DNA from: Pseudomonas helvetica
GTDB lineage: Bacteria; Pseudomonadota; Gammaproteobacteria; Pseudomonadales; Pseudomonadaceae
Assembly (NCBI RefSeq): GCF_039908645.1
Contig: NZ_CP150917.1
Location: forward strand, 5,033,501 to 5,097,500
Direction of reading: 5' to 3'
Length of the DNA: 64,000 bases
Both the position numbers and the translations under genes were made by a program. Position 1 is the first letter of the stretch, and the number at the start of each line of letters is the position of its first letter. The notes beneath the pieces were generated by a model. It was not told the origin of the DNA. It ran no database searches and saw nothing but the letters and a program-made list of their open reading frames with translations. Below are positions 7,704 through 15,899 of the stretch, piece after piece.

Positions 7704-8798
7704 TCAATCGTCACTGACGGTGATGTTCGGCATCGCTGGCGTGGCGGCTTCCTGCAAGACAATCCGCGCACCGACATGACGGGCCAGTTCCTGGTAGACC
7801 ATGGCGATCTGGCTGTCCGGCTCGGCAATCACTGTTGGCTTGCCGCCGTCAGCCTGCTCACGGATCAACATCGACAGCGGCAGCGATGCCAGCAGTTCGA
7901 CGCCATATTGGCTGGCCAGCTTCTCGCCGCCGCCTTCACCGAACAGGTGCTCGGCATGACCGCAGTTGGAGCAGATGTGCACAGCCATGTTTTCCACCAC
8001 GCCGAGCACTGGAATGTTGACCTTGCGGAACATCTCCACGCCTTTGCGGGCGTCCAGCAATGCCAGATCCTGCGGCGTGGTGACGATCACCGCCCCCGCC
8101 ACCGGGACTTTTTGCGCCAGGGTCAACTGAATGTCACCGGTACCCGGCGGCATGTCGATCACCAGATAATCCAGATCGCTCCAGGCGGTCTGTGTCACCA
8201 GTTGCAGCAAGGCGCCGGAGACCATCGGGCCACGCCAGACCATCGGCGTGTTGTCGTCGGTCAAAAACGCCATGGACATGACTTCAACGCCATGCGACTC
8301 GATCGGCACGAACCACTTCTGGTCCTTGATCTTCGGTCGGGTGCCTTCCGGGATGCCGAACATGATGCCCTGGCTCGGGCCGTAGATATCGGCATCGAGG
8401 ATCCCGACCTTGGCGCCTTCGCGGGCCAGCGCCAGCGCAAGGTTGGCGGCGGTGGTGGATTTGCCCACGCCGCCCTTGCCGGACGCCACCGCGACCACGT
8501 TCTTGACGTTGGCCAAACCCGGGATCTGCGCCTGCGCCTTGTGCGCGGCAATCACGGTGCTGATGTCGACTTTGGCCGAGGTCACGCCCTCCAGTCCTTC
8601 GATCGCCATTTGCAGCATTTGCGCCCAGCCACTCTTGAACAGGCCGGCGGCGTAGCCCAGTTCCAGCTGAACGCTGACGCGGTCGCCCTGAATGTCGATG
8701 CTGCGCAGGCAACCGGCGCTGACCGGATCCTGGTTCAAGTAAGGGTCGGTGTACTGACGAAGGACGGCTTCCACCGCTGCGCGATTGACGGCGCTCAT
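7704..8798 (-). CDS. apbC: Mrp/ApbC family iron-sulfur cluster carrier ATPase
   Basis: The 364-residue protein has an N-terminal MIP18/DUF59-type domain (residues 1-90, DPYLNQDPVSAGCLRSI) and a C-terminal MinD-like P-loop domain. The deviant Walker A is ASGKGGVGKST, Walker B is YLVIDMPPGTGD, and the metal-binding CSNC pair is in VHICSNCGH. ApbC/Mrp proteins carry and deliver Fe-S clusters in the cytosol in an ATP-dependent way. The ATG at 8798 has GGAG upstream; an earlier in-frame start 18 codons upstream is not supported. It is divergent from metG, as in other pseudomonads, with a REPIN between. Confidence 0.95.
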   Translation of the reverse strand: MSAVNRAAVEAVLRQYTDPYLNQDPVSAGCLRSIDIQGDRVSVQLELGYAAGLFKSGWAQMLQMAIEGLEGVTSAKVDISTVIAAHKAQAQIPGLANVKNVVAVASGKGGVGKSTTAANLALALAREGAKVGILDADIYGPSQGIMFGIPEGTRPKIKDQKWFVPIESHGVEVMSMAFLTDDNTPMVWRGPMVSGALLQLVTQTAWSDLDYLVIDMPPGTGDIQLTLAQKVPVAGAVIVTTPQDLALLDARKGVEMFRKVNIPVLGVVENMAVHICSNCGHAEHLFGEGGGEKLASQYGVELLASLPLSMLIREQADGGKPTVIAEPDSQIAMVYQELARHVGARIVLQEAATPAMPNITVSDD

Positions 8799-8857
8799 GG
8801 GCAACTCCGATAACAAGGCTGGAAAATCAGACGGGTATCCTACGCCGGACACTCATT

Positions 8858-9090: not shown

Positions 9091-11142
9091 ATGTCCGAGC
9101 CACGCAAGATCCTCGTCACCAGCGCCCTGCCCTATGCCAATGGTTCAATCCACCTTGGCCATATGCTTGAGTACATCCAGACCGATATGTGGGTGCGCTT
9201 CCAGAAGCATCGCGGCAATCAATGCACGTATGTCTGCGCGGACGACGCCCACGGTTCGGCCATCATGCTGCGCGCAGAAAAAGAAGGCATCACCCCGGAA
9301 CAACTGATCGCCAACGTCCAGGCTGAACACAGCGCCGACTTTGCCGAGTTCCTGGTGGACTTCGACAACTTCCACTCCACTCACGCTGAAGAAAACCGTG
9401 AGCTGTCGAGCCAGATCTACCTGAAGCTGCGTGACGCCGGGCACATCGCCACGCGCTCGATCACCCAGTATTTCGACCCGGAAAAGAAAATGTTCCTGGC
9501 CGACCGCTTCATCAAGGGCACCTGCCCGAAGTGCGGCACTGAAGACCAGTACGGCGACAACTGCGAAAAGTGCGGTGCCACTTACGCGCCGACCGACCTG
9601 AAAGATCCGAAGTCGGCGATCTCGGGCGCCACACCGGTGCTCAAGGATTCCCAACACTTCTTCTTCAAGCTGCCGGACTTCCAGCAGATGCTGCAGGAAT
9701 GGACCCGCAGCGGCACCCTGCAAGACGCAGTCGCGAACAAGATCGCCGAATGGCTGGATGTCGGCCTGCAACAGTGGGATATCTCCCGCGATGCGCCGTA
9801 TTTCGGTTTCGAAATCCCCGACGAGCCAGGCAAGTACTTCTATGTCTGGCTCGACGCGCCAATCGGCTACATGGCGAGCTTCAAGAACCTCTGCGCACGT
9901 CGTCCTGAACTGGACTTCGACGCGTACTGGGCCAAGGACTCCACCGCCGAGCTGTACCACTTCATCGGCAAGGACATCGTCAATTTCCACGCGCTGTTCT
10001 GGCCAGCCATGCTCGAAGGCGCGGGCTACCGCAAGCCGACCGGTATCAACGTACACGGCTACCTGACCGTCAATGGCCAGAAAATGTCCAAGTCCCGCGG
10101 CACCTTCATCAAGGCCCGGACCTACCTGGACCACCTGTCGCCGGAATACCTGCGTTACTACTACGCCTCCAAACTCGGCCGTGGCGTCGACGACCTGGAC
10201 CTGAACCTCGAAGACTTCGTGCAGAAGGTCAACTCCGACCTGGTCGGCAAAGTCGTCAACATCGCCAGCCGCTGCGCCGGCTTCATCCACAAAGGCAACG
10301 CCGGTGTGCTGGTGGCCGGTAATGCCGCGCCAGAACTGACCGACGCGTTCCTGGCCGCCGCGCCGAGCATCGCCGAGGCCTATGAGGCTCGCGACTTCGC
10401 CCGTGCCATGCGCGAAATCATGGGCCTGGCCGACCGCGCCAACGCCTGGATCGCCGACAAGGCGCCATGGTCGCTGAACAAGCAGGAAGGCAAGCAAGAC
10501 GAAGTCCAGGCGATCTGCGCCCTGGGCGTCAACCTGTTCCGCCAACTGGTGATCTTCCTCAAGCCTGTGCTGCCGTTGCTCGCCGCCGACGCCGAGGCGT
10601 TCCTCAACGTCGCACCGCTGACCTGGAACGATCACGCGACCCTGCTCAGCAACCATCAACTGAACGAGTTCAAACCGCTGATGACCCGTATCGACCCAGT
10701 CAAGGTGCAAGCCATGACCGACGCTTCGAAAGAAGACCTGGCCGCCAGCCAGACCGACACCGGCGATGCCGCCCCACAAGGGAATGGCGAACTGGCCAAG
10801 GATCCGCTGTCGCCAGAGATCGAGTTCGATACCTTTGCCGCGGTTGACCTGCGGGTGGCGCTGATCCTCAAGGCCGAAGCCGTGGAAGGCGCGGACAAGC
10901 TGCTGCGCCTGACCCTGGATATCGGTGACGAGCAACGCAACGTGTTCTCCGGCATCAAGAGCGCATATCCAGACCCGGCCAAGCTTGAAGGTCGTCTGAC
11001 GATGATGATCGCCAACCTCAAGCCACGCAAAATGCGTTTCGGGATCTCCGAAGGCATGGTCATGGCGGCAGGCCCTGGCGGCGAAGAAATCTACCTGTTG
11101 AGCCCGGACAGCGGCGCCAAGCCGGGTCAGCGCATCAAGTAA
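9091..11142 (+). CDS. metG: Methionyl-tRNA synthetase
   Basis: The 683-residue cytosolic enzyme charges tRNA-Met. The class I HIGH signature is HLGH at residues 21-24, the KMSKS loop is at residues 331-335, and a zinc knuckle with CPKCG and CEKCG lies at about residues 145-161. The C-terminal part (from about 580, [20 protein letters not shown]) is the tRNA-binding EMAPII-type domain that also dimerises the protein. Length and order match the long bacterial MetG form. The ATG has no strong ribosome site directly before it. A terminator follows, so it appears monocistronic. Confidence 0.99.
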
Positions 11143-11262: not shown

Positions 11263-11850
11263 ATGACCGACATTCTGCTCACGCTCATCAGCACCGCCCT
11301 GATCAATAACTTCATCGTGCACTGGCCGCTGGGTGTCGATCCGTTGATGCAATCGACGCGTGAGCCTGCCATCGAACGTCGTCAGGTTCATGCCCTGGGC
11401 ATTGCAACCACCTGCCTGATGTTGCTCAGCGGCGTTCTGGGTTACGCGGCCTATTACTGGTTGCTGATACTGCTCGGGCTGACGTCCTTGTACCTGTTTG
11501 TGTTTTTGCCCTTGAGCGTACTGCTGATTACCCCGCTGCTGAATCTGCTGACGCGTGCCCTGCCGCAGTTACCGTTCAACGGCTTGTGGCCGTTATTGCT
11601 GGGCAACGCTGGCGTGCTGGGGCTGAGCCTGTTCGGCATGCAGAGTGACAAAGGCTTTGGCTATCACGTAGCGCTATGTCTTGGCGCCGGGCTGGGTTTC
11701 TGGCTGGTGCTGAGTCTGTTCAGCGACCTGCGCCAGCGCATTCTCAATAACGATGTGCCCCTGCCCTTTCGTGGCCTGCCGATCGACCTGATCAGCGCCG
11801 GACTGATCGCAGTGGCATTTCTCGGCTTCAGCGGACTGATCAAAACATGA
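11263..11850 (+). CDS. rnfA: RnfA-like membrane subunit, divergent (lacks the conserved cysteines)
   Basis: The 195-residue protein is a six-helix membrane protein of the RnfA/NqrE family, first gene of an rnf-like operon. The family's opening is preserved up to [12 protein letters not shown]. In normal RnfA the next residues are LCP, and that Cys shares a [2Fe-2S] cluster with RnfE; here the segment reads VDP. The second family Cys, in an NCAVLG context, is replaced by NAGVLG (residues 115-120). So both cluster ligands expected from RnfA are absent. It overlaps rnfB by 4 bases (ATGA). It probably still folds as a membrane scaffold, but the usual electron path across the membrane would need another arrangement. 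Confidence 0.85.
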
Positions 11851-13061
11851 GTCTGATTCAACGTATCGACGCACTCCTGCCGCAGACCCAATGCGGCAAA
11901 TGCGGCCACCCCGGATGCAAGCCCTACGCTGAAGGCATCGCCAATGGCGAGGCAATCAACAAGTGCCCACCGGGCGGCAACGAGACCATTTCAGCGTTGG
12001 CCGAACTGCTGAAAATCCCGGTGTTGGAACTGGACACCAGCCGTGGCTCGGCACCGGCGCAAATTGCATTTATCCGTGAAGCCGAATGCATCGGCTGCAC
12101 CAAGTGCATTCAGGCCTGCCCGATAGACGCAATTGTCGGCGCAGCAAAACTGATGCACACGGTGCTGATCGACGAATGCACTGGTTGCGATCTGTGCGTA
12201 GCACCCTGCCCGGTGGATTGCATCGAAATGCATCCTTTACCCTCGACCCAGGTGCTGCCGATTATCGGTGGTCTGGCGTTCACGCCCGAAGAACTGCAAG
12301 CACGCAACGCCAAACGCGATCACGCAAGGCAGCGCTTCGAACAGCGCAATGCACGCCTGCGTCGTGAGGAAGAGCAAAAGCACGCTGAACGACTGGCCCG
12401 CGCGCAAAAAGCCGCTCAACACAGCGATGCCAGCAATACCCCGCTGCAGGACGCCATTGCCCGGGTTCAGGCCCAAAAAGCCGCAGCCGCCGATGCCGCG
12501 CTGAAAAAAGCCAAGATCGATGTGGCGATGAGCCGCGCGCAACTGAACAAATCGCTGAAAGCTTTTGGGCATCCTCCGACCTTCGAACAGCAGTCGCAGC
12601 TGATCATTTTGCAGCAGCAATTCGAAGCCGCCGAGCAAGCTCTGACGCAGCTCGAAAGCACAGTCCCGTCAGCACCTGTGCAACCGACGGCGCCGGCCAA
12701 CGATGCCGAACTCAAACGCGCGAAAATCCAGCTGGCGATGCGTCGCGCCGAGCTGAAAAAAGCCCAGGCCAGCGAAGCACCGGCCGAGCAACTGGAAGCG
12801 CTCAGCGCGGCCCTCGCTCAAGCGGAGCAGGCGCTGCACGCTGCCGAGGGAGCCAGCGAAAAACCGGCACCCGACCTGGTACGCGTCGAAAAACGTCCCA
12901 TCGACGCTCAACTGCGGCAACTGAAAACCGAGCTGGCTTATGCCCGCGCCGATGTCAGCAAGCTCGAGCGGGGTCCTGATACACCGGCGGAGCTCCTGGC
13001 CAAGGCCCGCGAACGGCTCTGCGAAGCCGAGCGCCAGGTAAACGCCTATGTCGCCCCTTGA
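11847..13061 (+). CDS. rnfB: RnfB-like ferredoxin without membrane anchor, with three-repeat coiled-coil tail
   Basis: The 404-residue protein has all 12 cysteines for three [4Fe-4S] clusters: C16, C19, C24, C40 (the RnfB-type cluster), then [12 protein letters not shown] (81-91) and [12 protein letters not shown] (111-121). Ordinary RnfB begins with a membrane helix; this one begins straight at [20 protein letters not shown], so it looks soluble. Residues 150-404 form a charged, Ala-rich tail not seen in short RnfB. It contains three copies of a unit of about 68 residues, starting DAALKKAK (216), DAELKRAK (286) and DAQLRQLK (353), each followed by a second helix ending AEQAL or AERQV. From memory this tail resembles the C-terminus of RnfC, whose gene is missing here. 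It overlaps rnfA by 4 bases and rnfD by 14. Confidence 0.85.
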
Positions 13062-14046
13062 ACCGGTCGATGATCGCCTGCAACAGGCGATGAAACGGGT
13101 GTTACTGGCCACCGTGCCGGGCATGCTGGTGTTGTTCTGGTTATCTGGCTGGGGTGTTCTGATCAATCTGCTGCTGGCCTGCGGCAGCGCGTTAGCCGTT
13201 GAAGCGCTGGTGTTGCGCTTGCGCAAGTACCCGCTCAAGCCTGCGCTAAGCGACGGCAGCGCGTTGGTCAGCGCTACCTTGCTGGCACTGGCGTTACCAC
13301 CTTACTGTCCATGGTGGTTGACGGTCAGCGCTGCGGTATTCGCGATGTTTTTCGGCAAGCACCTTTATGGTGGCGTTGGCAAAAACCCGTTCAATCCGGC
13401 CATGCTCGGTTTTGCGCTGGTACTGGTGTGTTTCCCGCGACAGATGACCCACTGGCCGACGTCCCACGGGATGAATCTGCTCGCCGGCCTGCAACAGATT
13501 TTCGGTTTCAATTTCAGCGGTGCCGAGCAGCCCGACGCCTGGGTGACGGCCACGGCGCTGGATAGCCTGCGAATCAACAAAAGCCTGACCATGGACGAAC
13601 TCTTCGCCGGCAACCCGGCGTTTGGCCACATGGGTGGTAAAGGTATCGAATGGGTGAATCTGGCTTTCCTCGCCGGCGGCGCGTTCCTGTTACAGCAGCG
13701 GGTGTTCAGCTGGCATGCGCCGGTCGGCATGCTCGGCAGTCTGTTCGTCATCAGCCTGTTGTGCTGGAACGGCTCAGGTTCGGACTCCCACGGCTCCCCA
13801 CTCTTTCACTTGCTGACGGGTGCGAGCATGCTCGGGGCATTCTTTATCGTGACCGAACCGGTATCGGGAGCGAAAAGTCCAAAAGCCCGCCTGATGTTCG
13901 GCGCGGGCGTCGGCCTGCTGACCTACCTGATTCGAACCTGGGGCGGCTATCCCGACGGGGTGGCCTTTGCGGTGCTGCTGATGAATCTCTGCGTACCGGC
14001 CCTGGAACGCCTCGCTGCTGCACAACCAGAGCCTCGTACACCATGA
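13048..14046 (+). CDS. rnfD: RnfD-like flavin-carrying membrane subunit
   Basis: The 332-residue protein is a polytopic membrane protein of the RnfD/NqrB family. Family landmarks include [22 protein letters not shown], shortened here to its core, then [17 protein letters not shown] and [20 protein letters not shown]. In RnfD an FMN is attached to a Thr or Ser in an SGAT-like motif; the matching site here reads TGAS. No Rnf NADH-binding subunit (RnfC) gene precedes it, although rnfC normally lies between rnfB and rnfD. It starts inside the end of rnfB and overlaps rnfG by 4 bases, indicating a coupled operon. Confidence 0.9.
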
Positions 14047-14648
14047 AGCGGAATTTCAGTGTGCTGATGCTGGTGGTCGTGGCCGGATTGGGCGCAGGCG
14101 CTACATTTTTCCTGCAACACGCCACCGCGCCGCAGATATCGGCTGAACAGCGCTTGATCGAAAGCCGCAAGCTGTTCGACATGCTGCCAGTCGGCAGCTA
14201 CGACAATCAGCCTTTGGACCAGCGACTCGCGTTCAAGGATATCGCGCTGAGCAACAGCACCTTACTGGGCGGTTACCTGGCCACAGCAGGCGGAAAACCC
14301 AGTGCAGTGATATTACGCAGCCAGGTGACGGGTTACGAAAATGCGATCGAACTGCTGATCGTGATCGACATCAACGGCAAGTTGCTGGGAGTCAAAACCC
14401 TCAAGCAATCGGAAACACCAGGGCTGGGCGGGAGAATCGCCGACCAGCCCAATCCCTGGCTTCAGGGCTTTTTCGGCAAGTCGCGCAACGACCCTGGTGA
14501 CAGTGGCTGGGCGCTGAAAAAAGATCAGGGGCAATTCGACCAGTTGATCGGCGCAACCGTCACTTCCAGGGCGGTGATCAGCGCGATCCATGATGCGTTA
14601 CGCTATTTCGACGAGCATCAGCCACAACTGATCGGGAGCGGACAATGA
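14043..14648 (+). CDS. rnfG: RnfG-like flavin-binding subunit
   Basis: The 201-residue protein has one N-terminal membrane helix (about residues 5-24) and an extracytoplasmic FMN-binding domain. ETPGLGGRI and the flavin-attachment segment IGATVTSRAV near the C-terminus are characteristic of RnfG/NqrC. The Thr that would carry FMN is kept, but the usual Ser three residues before it is Ile. Its ATG overlaps the rnfD stop (ATGA), which decides the start against longer upstream readings. It is followed by rnfE with the same ATGA overlap. Confidence 0.9.
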   Translation: MKRNFSVLMLVVVAGLGAGATFFLQHATAPQISAEQRLIESRKLFDMLPVGSYDNQPLDQRLAFKDIALSNSTLLGGYLATAGGKPSAVILRSQVTGYENAIELLIVIDINGKLLGVKTLKQSETPGLGGRIADQPNPWLQGFFGKSRNDPGDSGWALKKDQGQFDQLIGATVTSRAVISAIHDALRYFDEHQPQLIGSGQ

Positions 14649-15235
14649 ACCAGTCCTCGATGCTGCAGAACTCGCTGATATTGACCCCGTTGATCGGCGC
14701 CAGTGACTCCTTGGTAAAAGCCTTGGGTCTGTCGCTGTTATCGCTGCTGGTCATTGGTGTTTACGGCCTGAAGATGAGTGTATTGCGGCCGCGAATCGTC
14801 CCGTCCATGCAGTTGATCACCTGCATTGCACTCGCCGCCACATTGACCAGCCTGGCAACATTGGCATTACAGGCCTGGGCCTTTGAACTGCATCAGCAAC
14901 TGGGAATGTATGCCGGACTGATTGCCCTGCAGTGCATTGTGCTGGAGTACAGCGGCTTTTTTACCCAGGCGAGCATGATCGACCGGACTCGCCTGTCCAG
15001 CCTGTTTTTTGGGCTGATGGTTGTACTGGGCGTGTTGCGAGAAGCCCTTGGCAATGGGTCATTCGCCAGCCATGTGTCCTGGTTGAGCGGAATTATTGAT
15101 TCCAGCGGGCAAGGCTGGCTGTTTGCCGCTGATGGCGGCATACGACTGGCCATCCTCGCCCCCGGCGGATTTATCCTGCTGGGACTGCTCATAGCCGCCA
15201 AACAAGCCTGGCCCGGCGCCTCGACCTCACACTGA
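14645..15235 (+). CDS. rnfE: RnfE-like membrane subunit, divergent
   Basis: The 196-residue protein is a multi-helix membrane protein of the RnfE/NqrD family. In the family the segment LLGLCPLLAVT near residue 25 gives one ligand of the [2Fe-2S] cluster shared with RnfA; here the region reads LIGASDSLVKALG and is shortened. The second family Cys seems kept at C97 (LQCIVLEYSG). The later VLREALGNGSF block agrees with the RnfE consensus LREILGxGxx. It overlaps rnfG by 4 bases and precedes nth by 25 bases. Confidence 0.82.
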   Translation: MNQSSMLQNSLILTPLIGASDSLVKALGLSLLSLLVIGVYGLKMSVLRPRIVPSMQLITCIALAATLTSLATLALQAWAFELHQQLGMYAGLIALQCIVLEYSGFFTQASMIDRTRLSSLFFGLMVVLGVLREALGNGSFASHVSWLSGIIDSSGQGWLFAADGGIRLAILAPGGFILLGLLIAAKQAWPGASTSH

Positions 15236-15260: not shown

Positions 15261-15899
15261 ATGAATGCTGCAAAACGCCTGGAAATTTTCCGTCGGCTTC
15301 ACGAAGACAATCCGGAACCGAAAACCGAACTGGCCTACTCGTCGCCCTTCGAATTGCTGATCGCCGTGATCCTTTCCGCGCAGTCCACGGACGTAGGCGT
15401 CAACAAGGCCACCGCCAAGCTGTTTCCGGTGGCCAATACTCCGGCAGCGATGTATGCGCTGGGTGTAGAAGGATTGTCCGAGTACATCAAGACCATCGGC
15501 CTGTACAACAGCAAGGCAAAAAACGTCATAGAAACCTGCCGAATGCTGGTAGAGCTTCATGGCGGCGAAGTACCGCAAACCCGTGAGGAGCTGGAAGCGC
15601 TGCCCGGGGTCGGTAGAAAGACCGCGAACGTGGTGCTCAATACGGCTTTTCGCCAGCTGACCATGGCCGTCGACACGCACATTTTCCGGGTCAGCAACCG
15701 CACAGGGTTAGCGCCAGGCAAGAATGTCGTCGAGGTGGAAAAAAAACTGATGAAGTTTGTTCCCAAGGAGTATCTGCTCGACTCCCATCACTGGCTGATC
15801 CTCCACGGACGCTACGTTTGCCTGGCTCGCAAGCCCCGTTGTGGCAGCTGCCGTATCGAAGACCTGTGCGAATACAAGCAAAAGACCTCCGACGATTGA
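15261..15899 (+). CDS. nth: Endonuclease III (DNA glycosylase/AP lyase)
   Basis: The 212-residue protein removes oxidised pyrimidines from DNA and nicks the abasic site. The helix-hairpin-helix LPGVGRKTANVV holds catalytic Lys120; catalytic Asp138 is in MAVDTHIFRV. Four cysteines at 187, 194, 197 and 203 (C-x6-C-x2-C-x5-C) hold the [4Fe-4S] cluster. It is the last gene of the rnf-like operon, a linkage found in many gammaproteobacteria. Nothing in the sequence suggests loss of function. Confidence 0.98.
   Translation: MNAAKRLEIFRRLHEDNPEPKTELAYSSPFELLIAVILSAQSTDVGVNKATAKLFPVANTPAAMYALGVEGLSEYIKTIGLYNSKAKNVIETCRMLVELHGGEVPQTREELEALPGVGRKTANVVLNTAFRQLTMAVDTHIFRVSNRTGLAPGKNVVEVEKKLMKFVPKEYLLDSHHWLILHGRYVCLARKPRCGSCRIEDLCEYKQKTSDD

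Follow-up and report, generated by a model that had tools for sequence, protein, structure and literature searches.

A Pseudomonas rnf operon without rnfC encodes a predicted soluble RnfB–RnfC-tail fusion and keeps one of four membrane-cluster cysteines

In canonical Rnf, as outlined in the available portion of a review (PMC12174285), electrons pass from RnfB to the cluster shared by RnfA and RnfE, on to RnfG and RnfD, and finally through RnfC to nicotinamide adenine dinucleotide (NAD; NADH when reduced). The same portion places RnfG primarily at RnfD, reports contacts of an elongated RnfC helix in Azotobacter with RnfB and RnfH, and describes the role of the RnfC tail as not yet understood. 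Four cysteines of RnfA and RnfE make up a metal site in Clostridium tetanomorphum according to the available part of a second source (PMC9588780), and both sources, in these parts, call the membrane iron site of Rnf and NQR strictly conserved. Here we analyze the rnf operon at positions 11263 to 15235 of a 64,000-nucleotide stretch of the Pseudomonas helvetica genome (NZ_CP150917.1, positions 5,033,501 to 5,097,500; the whole stretch is hereafter the window), which an earlier note had described from its letters as a reduced Rnf system. For comparison we read the best 80 of 568 loci from named genomes, all close to the window, 60 further loci chosen from a sample of 248 genomes of the family, and E. 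coli; these gave 113 operons without rnfC (reduced) and 28 with rnfC in the operon (full). We are highly confident in the reduced architecture and the history that this comparison of sequences suggests.

On the + strand the window reads metG-rnfA-rnfB-rnfD-rnfG-rnfE-nth. Pfam and NCBIfam assign RnfA, RnfB, RnfD, RnfG, RnfE and endonuclease III, with RnfB, RnfD and RnfG above their NCBIfam cut-offs and RnfA and RnfE below (Table 1). The tight overlaps that had been noted in this gene order were confirmed, with an ATGA at 11847 between rnfA and rnfB, 14 nt shared by rnfB and rnfD, and overlaps at 14043-14046 (rnfD/rnfG) and 14645-14648 (rnfG/rnfE). The genome that holds the window is a single contig of 6.44 Mb, and throughout it nothing scored over the RnfC cut-off: the best TIGR01945 match reached 56.6 bits (cut-off 246) and is, in our reading, a NuoF-like region. 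The sole RnfC_N match, 27.8 bits with its neighbours, is above the family cut-off of 25.6; from the open reading frame we assign it to a carboxylase biotinyl domain. An rnfC elsewhere in the genome, which would have undercut the idea of a reduced complex, was therefore rejected. Only the two window genes match PF02508 genome-wide, and without a second PF02508 pair the genome has no separate NQR or second Rnf core.

The claim that rnfC is absent stands for the gene, but not for its C-terminal tail, which survives as the C-terminal part of RnfB. The window RnfB is 404 aa long; its ferredoxin core ends near residue 131, and residues from about 145 to 404 are homologous to the RnfC C-terminal tail of Pseudomonadaceae with a complete operon. 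The match to RnfC of a Pseudomonas locus, L168, has an E value of 6e-41, calculated with composition-adjusted statistics and an assumed database size of 1e8 letters, and 0 of 200 shuffled RnfB tails gave a match at E up to 10. Given these statistics and shuffles, similarity through composition was rejected. The fusion tail starts close to where RnfC exits its two-cluster domain. As judged from these alignments, the RnfC region with NADH, flavin mononucleotide (FMN) and clusters is gone, and the RnfC tail is joined to RnfB. RnfB starts about 15 residues ahead of its first cluster and has no hydrophobic helix, as had been noted. The maximum 19-residue hydropathy is 1.46 in the window RnfB and at most 1.5 in 110 reduced cores, whereas 28 canonical RnfB range from 2.41 to 3.18. 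An upstream start that could supply an anchor was also rejected, since the open frame in L076 and L080 starts only 20 residues before the first cluster. The 12 cluster-cysteine columns, which the note had counted in the window, are each kept in 110 or 111 of 111 reduced rows, and the ratio of nonsynonymous to synonymous substitution rates (dN/dS; 150 pairs) indicates purifying selection on both the tail (0.14) and the core (0.07). RnfB is, by these criteria, an anchorless 12-cysteine ferredoxin fused to an RnfC tail.

At the membrane cluster, all four cysteines of RnfA and RnfE are present in every full operon (28/28 at each position), and three of the four are lost in all 113 reduced operons. 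The first RnfA position is Asp in 107 of these, Glu in 3 and Asn, Ala or Gly in 1 each; the second is Ala in 96, Gly in 15 and Ser or Val in 1 each; and the first RnfE position is Ala in 68, Thr in 32 and another residue in 13. The second RnfE cysteine is retained in 112 of 113, and in the window, RnfE Cys97 is likewise the only one of the four. The note had located the RnfA losses correctly, with Asp26 in GVDP and Ala116 in NAGVLG at the two cluster-cysteine columns. For RnfE it was right that only Cys97 is kept, but the lost first cysteine corresponds to Thr14 (in LILTP) and does not lie in LIGASDS, where the note had placed it. The reduced RnfA and RnfE profiles, each built with five full-type rows included, align in the same register to the chains of solved Rnf structures. 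Replacement cysteines at shifted positions, the other finding that would have spoken against the note, were rejected: apart from RnfE Cys97, the reduced rows have no near-invariant cysteine column, with cysteine in 74/113 at the RnfA Cys50 column and in 89/113 at RnfE column 88. The alignments indicate that RnfA and RnfE together can no longer offer a full set of four cysteines for the membrane cluster.

The flavin-site motifs TGAS in RnfD and GAT in RnfG, both read by the note, are present in the window. GAT is kept in 118 of 119 rows and TGAS, as the pattern is written, in 113 of 119, with GAT or GAS still present in three exceptions that were read. PF03116 is the only family domain of RnfD, which has no fused NAD-binding PF00175 domain. 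We counted the columns invariant in at least 95% of 27 full operons, scoring them as kept at 90% in reduced operons, and found 115 of 162 kept in RnfD, 75 of 101 in the RnfB core, 38 of 77 in RnfG, 31 of 128 in RnfA and 19 of 114 in RnfE. This order of retention is as expected if the RnfD-RnfG path survives and the RnfA/RnfE wire does not. RnfD and RnfG thus retain predicted covalent-flavin motifs, with RnfD keeping most of its invariant residues. As predicted from these features, the operon cannot run the canonical Rnf circuit: the first path is without its wire and the last step without its enzyme, so that only RnfD with RnfG could still conduct. With the RnfC part for NADH, FMN and two [4Fe-4S] clusters gone, and three ligands lost, the note's description of a system no longer linked to NADH appears sound.

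The reduced operon is widespread around the window. The family sample of 248 genomes and a class sample of 281 are even draws rather than all genomes. In the former, rnfD (E up to 1e-20) was found in 215 genomes and rnfC (E up to 1e-30) in 176. Within the genus of the window (55 of the 248), rnfD was found in 45 genomes and rnfC in 19, with rnfD but not rnfC in 26, so that in this genus the presence of rnf genes does not equate to a ferredoxin:NAD pump. All 80 loci from named genomes have metG, the five rnf genes and nth, and 78 have them in that order on a mechanical reading.

In an RnfD tree of 78 rows, 46 reduced sequences of Pseudomonadaceae group in a single clade (SH-aLRT 99), separate from 27 of the full type. 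One reduced locus, L201 (G124), falls outside this clade; it has lost both RnfA cysteines, keeps the first RnfE cysteine but not the second, and encodes an anchorless RnfB with a long RnfC tail. A single reduced clade that includes L201 is nevertheless compatible with the RnfD data (p-AU 0.78; 48 rows, being the 46 reduced, L201, and L228, which has RnfC). In a MetG tree of 91 rows, reduced and full lineages are mixed and well-supported branches force at least 6 label changes. The MetG tree alone would suggest several independent origins within Pseudomonadaceae, which we rejected given the single RnfD clade of 46. A tree of the RnfB core (125 columns, 17 of 23 solo RnfB loci having passed the motif filter) was poorly resolved, with 5 starred branches, and lends weak support to this history. 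The trees sample the reduced loci, taking those from L124 onward with a gene long enough, L014, and 10, 6 or 4 of the other 79. There was probably one old origin of the reduced operon followed by its spread. From the MetG and RnfD trees compared, we infer transfer of the reduced type between lineages, although one origin followed by transfer and an old polymorphism that sorted differently fit the data equally well.

Median dN/dS in reduced operons was 0.21 for RnfA, 0.10 for RnfB, 0.12 for RnfD, 0.20 for RnfG, 0.28 for RnfE and 0.03 for nth, against 0.21, 0.22, 0.33, 0.33, 0.30 and 0.10 in full operons (and 0.33 for RnfC), from 60 pairs each by the NG86 method, which is crude at these dS values, and with sets of pairs that differ in divergence. 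Scaled to nth, the median dN of reduced operons was about 6.0 (RnfA), 4.8 (RnfB), 4.3 (RnfD), 8.6 (RnfG) and 12.5 (RnfE), as compared to 1.0, 1.4, 2.1, 2.7 and 2.0 in full operons. By these estimates no reduced-operon subunit looks neutral, and RnfE changes fastest relative to nth. One open frame covers at least 80% of the query in all 113 reduced operons for rnfA, rnfD and rnfE and in 112 for rnfG; rnfB falls below 80% in 12, of which two are without rnfB and most others have a shorter tail. In RnfA, 22 columns invariant in full operons are re-fixed in the reduced type, with a new residue shared by at least 85% of 119 rows; the change from cysteine to aspartate (112/119) is one of them. Read this way, the re-fixation is more than decay, though partly shared ancestry. 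The single RnfD clade, dN/dS values well below 1, intact frames and re-fixed RnfA positions together support a maintained machine rather than debris; selection keeps the reduced complex, which therefore probably has a function different from that of canonical Rnf.

RnfB without RnfC also occurs widely outside such operons. Among the 281 class genomes, rnfB was found in 244 and rnfC (E up to 1e-60) in 167; 79, including that of the window, have rnfB without rnfC, and in 67 of the 79 no match to the rnfD family was found at E up to 1e-15. These counts depend on the thresholds, and at least one of the 79 (G522, locus L228) has a diverged RnfC beside rnfB that was missed at E 1e-60. Of the other 78 matches, 66 begin past model position 24 and are probably without an anchor, as read from the model alignment, although four of these are half-length matches that span only the second half of the model. 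We fetched 26 of the 78 loci, and 23 of these carry RnfB without other rnf genes; at 16 of the 23, nth follows downstream in the same orientation, no more than 1.3 kb away. A profile of the RnfC tail beyond the clusters, built from the 18 of 20 fetched RnfC that gave a tail and some earlier ones, matched 13 of the 26 RnfB tails at E <0.01, 12 of them at solo loci (n = 23), as compared to 0 of 520 shuffles (lowest E 0.61). That RnfB has been joined to RnfC remnants repeatedly suggests that the RnfC tail has a function. At one solo locus, L214 (G524), the neighbouring nth is split into two adjacent open frames.

Loci in other families may record an intermediate stage. In G318 (L206) and G352 (L229, L205), RnfB still has its anchor, and its fusion partner is the two-cluster domain plus tail of RnfC, the NADH/FMN part being gone. 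All four cysteines of RnfA and RnfE are present at these loci, which shows that the NADH module can be lost while clusters are retained. In G352, rnfA-rnfB and rnfD-rnfG-rnfE are on different contigs, with no rnf gene in the 2 kb after rnfB. We infer that the Pseudomonas type may have been reached via a stage like that of G318 and G352. At a further locus, L230 (G330), RnfA has its two cysteines and RnfB is anchored but stops directly behind its clusters; the rnfD-family match is on another contig.

We hypothesize, tentatively and with somewhat less than even confidence, that the operon encodes a derived Rnf rebuilt as a flavin half-circuit of RnfD and RnfG that does not pump, together with a soluble ferredoxin. 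Once the path from RnfB to RnfA/RnfE was cut, only the RnfD-RnfG path would still cross the membrane, connecting a partner at RnfD on the cytoplasmic side with the periplasmic FMN carried by RnfG, and NAD would not be reduced. The partner of RnfD could be the soluble RnfB-RnfC-tail fusion or a quinone, as in the related NqrB. For RnfA and RnfE we envisage either a scaffolding function or a new, non-redox one, of which the conserved Asp would be a sign. The fusion would additionally act alone as a soluble ferredoxin, a role suggested by relatives that keep it after losing the rest. We favor a half-circuit because RnfD with RnfG is what could still conduct and because one such path has been proposed for partial NQR/RNF-like clusters (PMC8238504, available portion). 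A more specific version, which we consider quite unlikely, is that the fusion docks at RnfD by its RnfC tail and passes electrons via the RnfD flavins to the periplasmic FMN of RnfG, with RnfA and RnfE non-redox and the mid-membrane Asp an ion or proton site. If true, such an Rnf derivative would export or import electrons without NADH and may have arisen by way of a stage with RnfB and the RnfC clusters fused.

Several observations weigh against a half-circuit coupled to the fusion. Of ten genomes of the genus without rnfD, nine keep the fusion alone between metG and nth (the tenth, G167, has nothing between them), so RnfB need not feed a membrane core, and in G200 (L154) and G242 (L155) the genes rnfA, rnfD, rnfG and rnfE are retained while the operon rnfB is a remnant of about 31 codons, flanked by rnfA and rnfD that look intact. 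Since each half survives without the other, coupling of the fusion to the membrane core is not obligatory. An rnfC-family match lies outside the stretch read in 6 of 33 reduced family-sample genomes (E 1e-112 to 1e-115; L144 in G135, L146 in G011, L148 in G141, L149 in G136, L151 in G094 and L156 in G062), where RnfC might still be supplied. The two measures of constraint also disagree: dN against nth is raised in all subunits, including RnfD and RnfG, while dN/dS is not above that of full operons, so which subunits look relaxed depends on the yardstick. RnfE, 169-221 aa as trimmed and with 17% of its invariants kept, also fits decay; rnfG of L067 is broken, being open over only 59% of its length; and the rnfD match of G102 (G102:C23:24865-25830) crosses one TGA stop. 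The separability of the halves would be explained if they were two independent modules sharing an operon, the fusion a free soluble ferredoxin for a cytoplasmic client, perhaps an Fe-S protein, with Nth the frequent neighbour, and RnfA-D-G-E doing something unrelated such as quinone-to-periplasmic-flavin transfer. We regard this as possible but unlikely. The fusion is also found alone in two genomes of other genera (G005 and G013), and the many solo RnfB loci of the class, often next to nth, point the same way. However, the operon order is kept with tight overlaps in nearly all named loci, the reduced type has apparently moved from one lineage to another, and the metG-rnfB-nth adjacency may be inherited from an ancestral metG-rnf-nth order.

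The membrane genes could instead be a relic, slowly decaying without function after the loss of the NADH module. The low retention of invariants in RnfA (24%) and RnfE, their raised dN relative to nth, and the losses of RnfA-D-G-E, or of everything, that do occur are all compatible with this. We nevertheless think it improbable, as the frames are open, dN/dS is 0.12-0.28 across the four membrane subunits, RnfA positions have been re-fixed, the flavin motifs are kept, and one clade is present in several MetG lineages; the inferred transfer between lineages likewise speaks against a useless relic. Very improbable, in our view, is a replacement centre by which electrons would still cross RnfA/RnfE, for example a mononuclear metal on RnfA Asp26 and RnfE Cys97, to a new cytoplasmic partner. 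Conserved Asp or Cys do occupy two of the four cluster positions, but these are the only candidate ligands, the other two positions being mostly Ala, Gly or Thr, and RnfE keeps few of its invariants.

Coordinates of the operon and its flanking genes are collected in Table 1. The genome is near to that of P. fluorescens FW300-N2E3 without being the same, with 100% identity in RnfD and 98% in RnfA. Divergent from metG and upstream of it, window positions 7704-8852 on the - strand encode what we take to be an Mrp/ApbC-like P-loop protein; such proteins are Fe-S cluster carriers. The genome has two ApbE flavin-transferase genes.

Table 1. Features of the reduced rnf locus, in window coordinates.
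Feature	Position	Strand	Evidence
metG, conserved upstream neighbour	9091..11142	+	present in all 80 named-genome loci
rnfA, reduced type, 195 aa	11263..11850	+	PF02508; TIGR01943 99.9 bits, cut-off 229.3 (below)
RnfA Asp26, column of first cluster cysteine	11338..11340	+	Cys 28/28 full, Asp 107/113 reduced
RnfA Ala116, column of second cluster cysteine	11608..11610	+	Cys 28/28 full, 0/113 reduced
rnfB N-terminal part: predicted anchorless ferredoxin core, 12 cluster cysteines	11847..12239	+	Pfam/NCBIfam, cysteine columns, hydropathy
rnfB C-terminal part: RnfC-derived repeat tail	12279..13061	+	59% identity over 166 aa to L168 RnfC
rnfD, 332 aa, flavin motif retained	13048..14046	+	TIGR01946 364 bits, cut-off 207
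RnfD Ser260 of TGAS, predicted FMN attachment residue	13825..13827	+	motif conservation
rnfG	14043..14648	+	TIGR01947 144 bits, cut-off 102; start set by ATGA overlap
RnfG Thr172 of GAT, predicted FMN attachment residue	14556..14558	+	motif conservation
rnfE, strongly diverged, 196 aa	14645..15235	+	TIGR01948 87.2 bits, cut-off 213.4 (below)
RnfE Thr14, column of first cluster cysteine	14684..14686	+	Cys 28/28 full, 0/113 reduced
RnfE Cys97, single retained cluster cysteine	14933..14935	+	Cys 112/113 reduced
nth (endonuclease III), conserved downstream neighbour	15261..15899	+	TIGR01083 286.5 bits, cut-off 211.7; all 80 named-genome loci

In the open-licence literature, searched by titles, abstract openings and term counts and with subscription journals outside its scope, we found no account of an RnfC-less Pseudomonas Rnf, a cysteine-less RnfA/RnfE, an RnfB-RnfC fusion or solo RnfB. 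The subunits are known; their combination is new. A lineage without the membrane iron site and the NADH module but with the flavin path would allow the two transmembrane electron paths to be studied apart.

The locus resembles canonical RnfABCDGE/RsxABCDGE, as found in E. coli and in complete Pseudomonadaceae operons, in its gene order, with nth following and, in Pseudomonadaceae, metG preceding, its homologous A, B, D, G and E subunits, the RnfB cysteines and the RnfD and RnfG flavin motifs. It differs in that the window is without the RnfC that carries NADH, FMN and [4Fe-4S] sites and without the four-cysteine membrane site, and in its apparently soluble RnfB fused to an RnfC tail. The solo RnfB/RsxB of other proteobacteria are similar in being mostly anchorless, often beside nth, and in about half of the loci read carrying a tail related to that of RnfC. 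In contrast to them, the window has RnfA, RnfD, RnfG and RnfE, and its RnfB tail is much longer, with a strong match to Pseudomonas RnfC. The window RnfB scores 250.3 bits against PRK06991 (cut-off 281), which, like PRK08764, is presumably an NCBIfam model of solo RnfB. The partial NQR/RNF-like systems of Meheust et al. 2021 (PMC8238504, available portion) likewise have one transmembrane path missing and the path from RnfD/NqrB to an extracytosolic FMN kept; however, their RnfD/NqrB is fused to the NAD-binding domain of NqrF, whereas the window RnfD is unfused and RnfA and RnfE remain. With Na+-NQR the locus has the A/E, D and G core in common, and NqrA is a cofactor-less relative of RnfC, but NQR retains the membrane cluster (PMC12174285, available portion) that the Pseudomonas operon appears to have lost.

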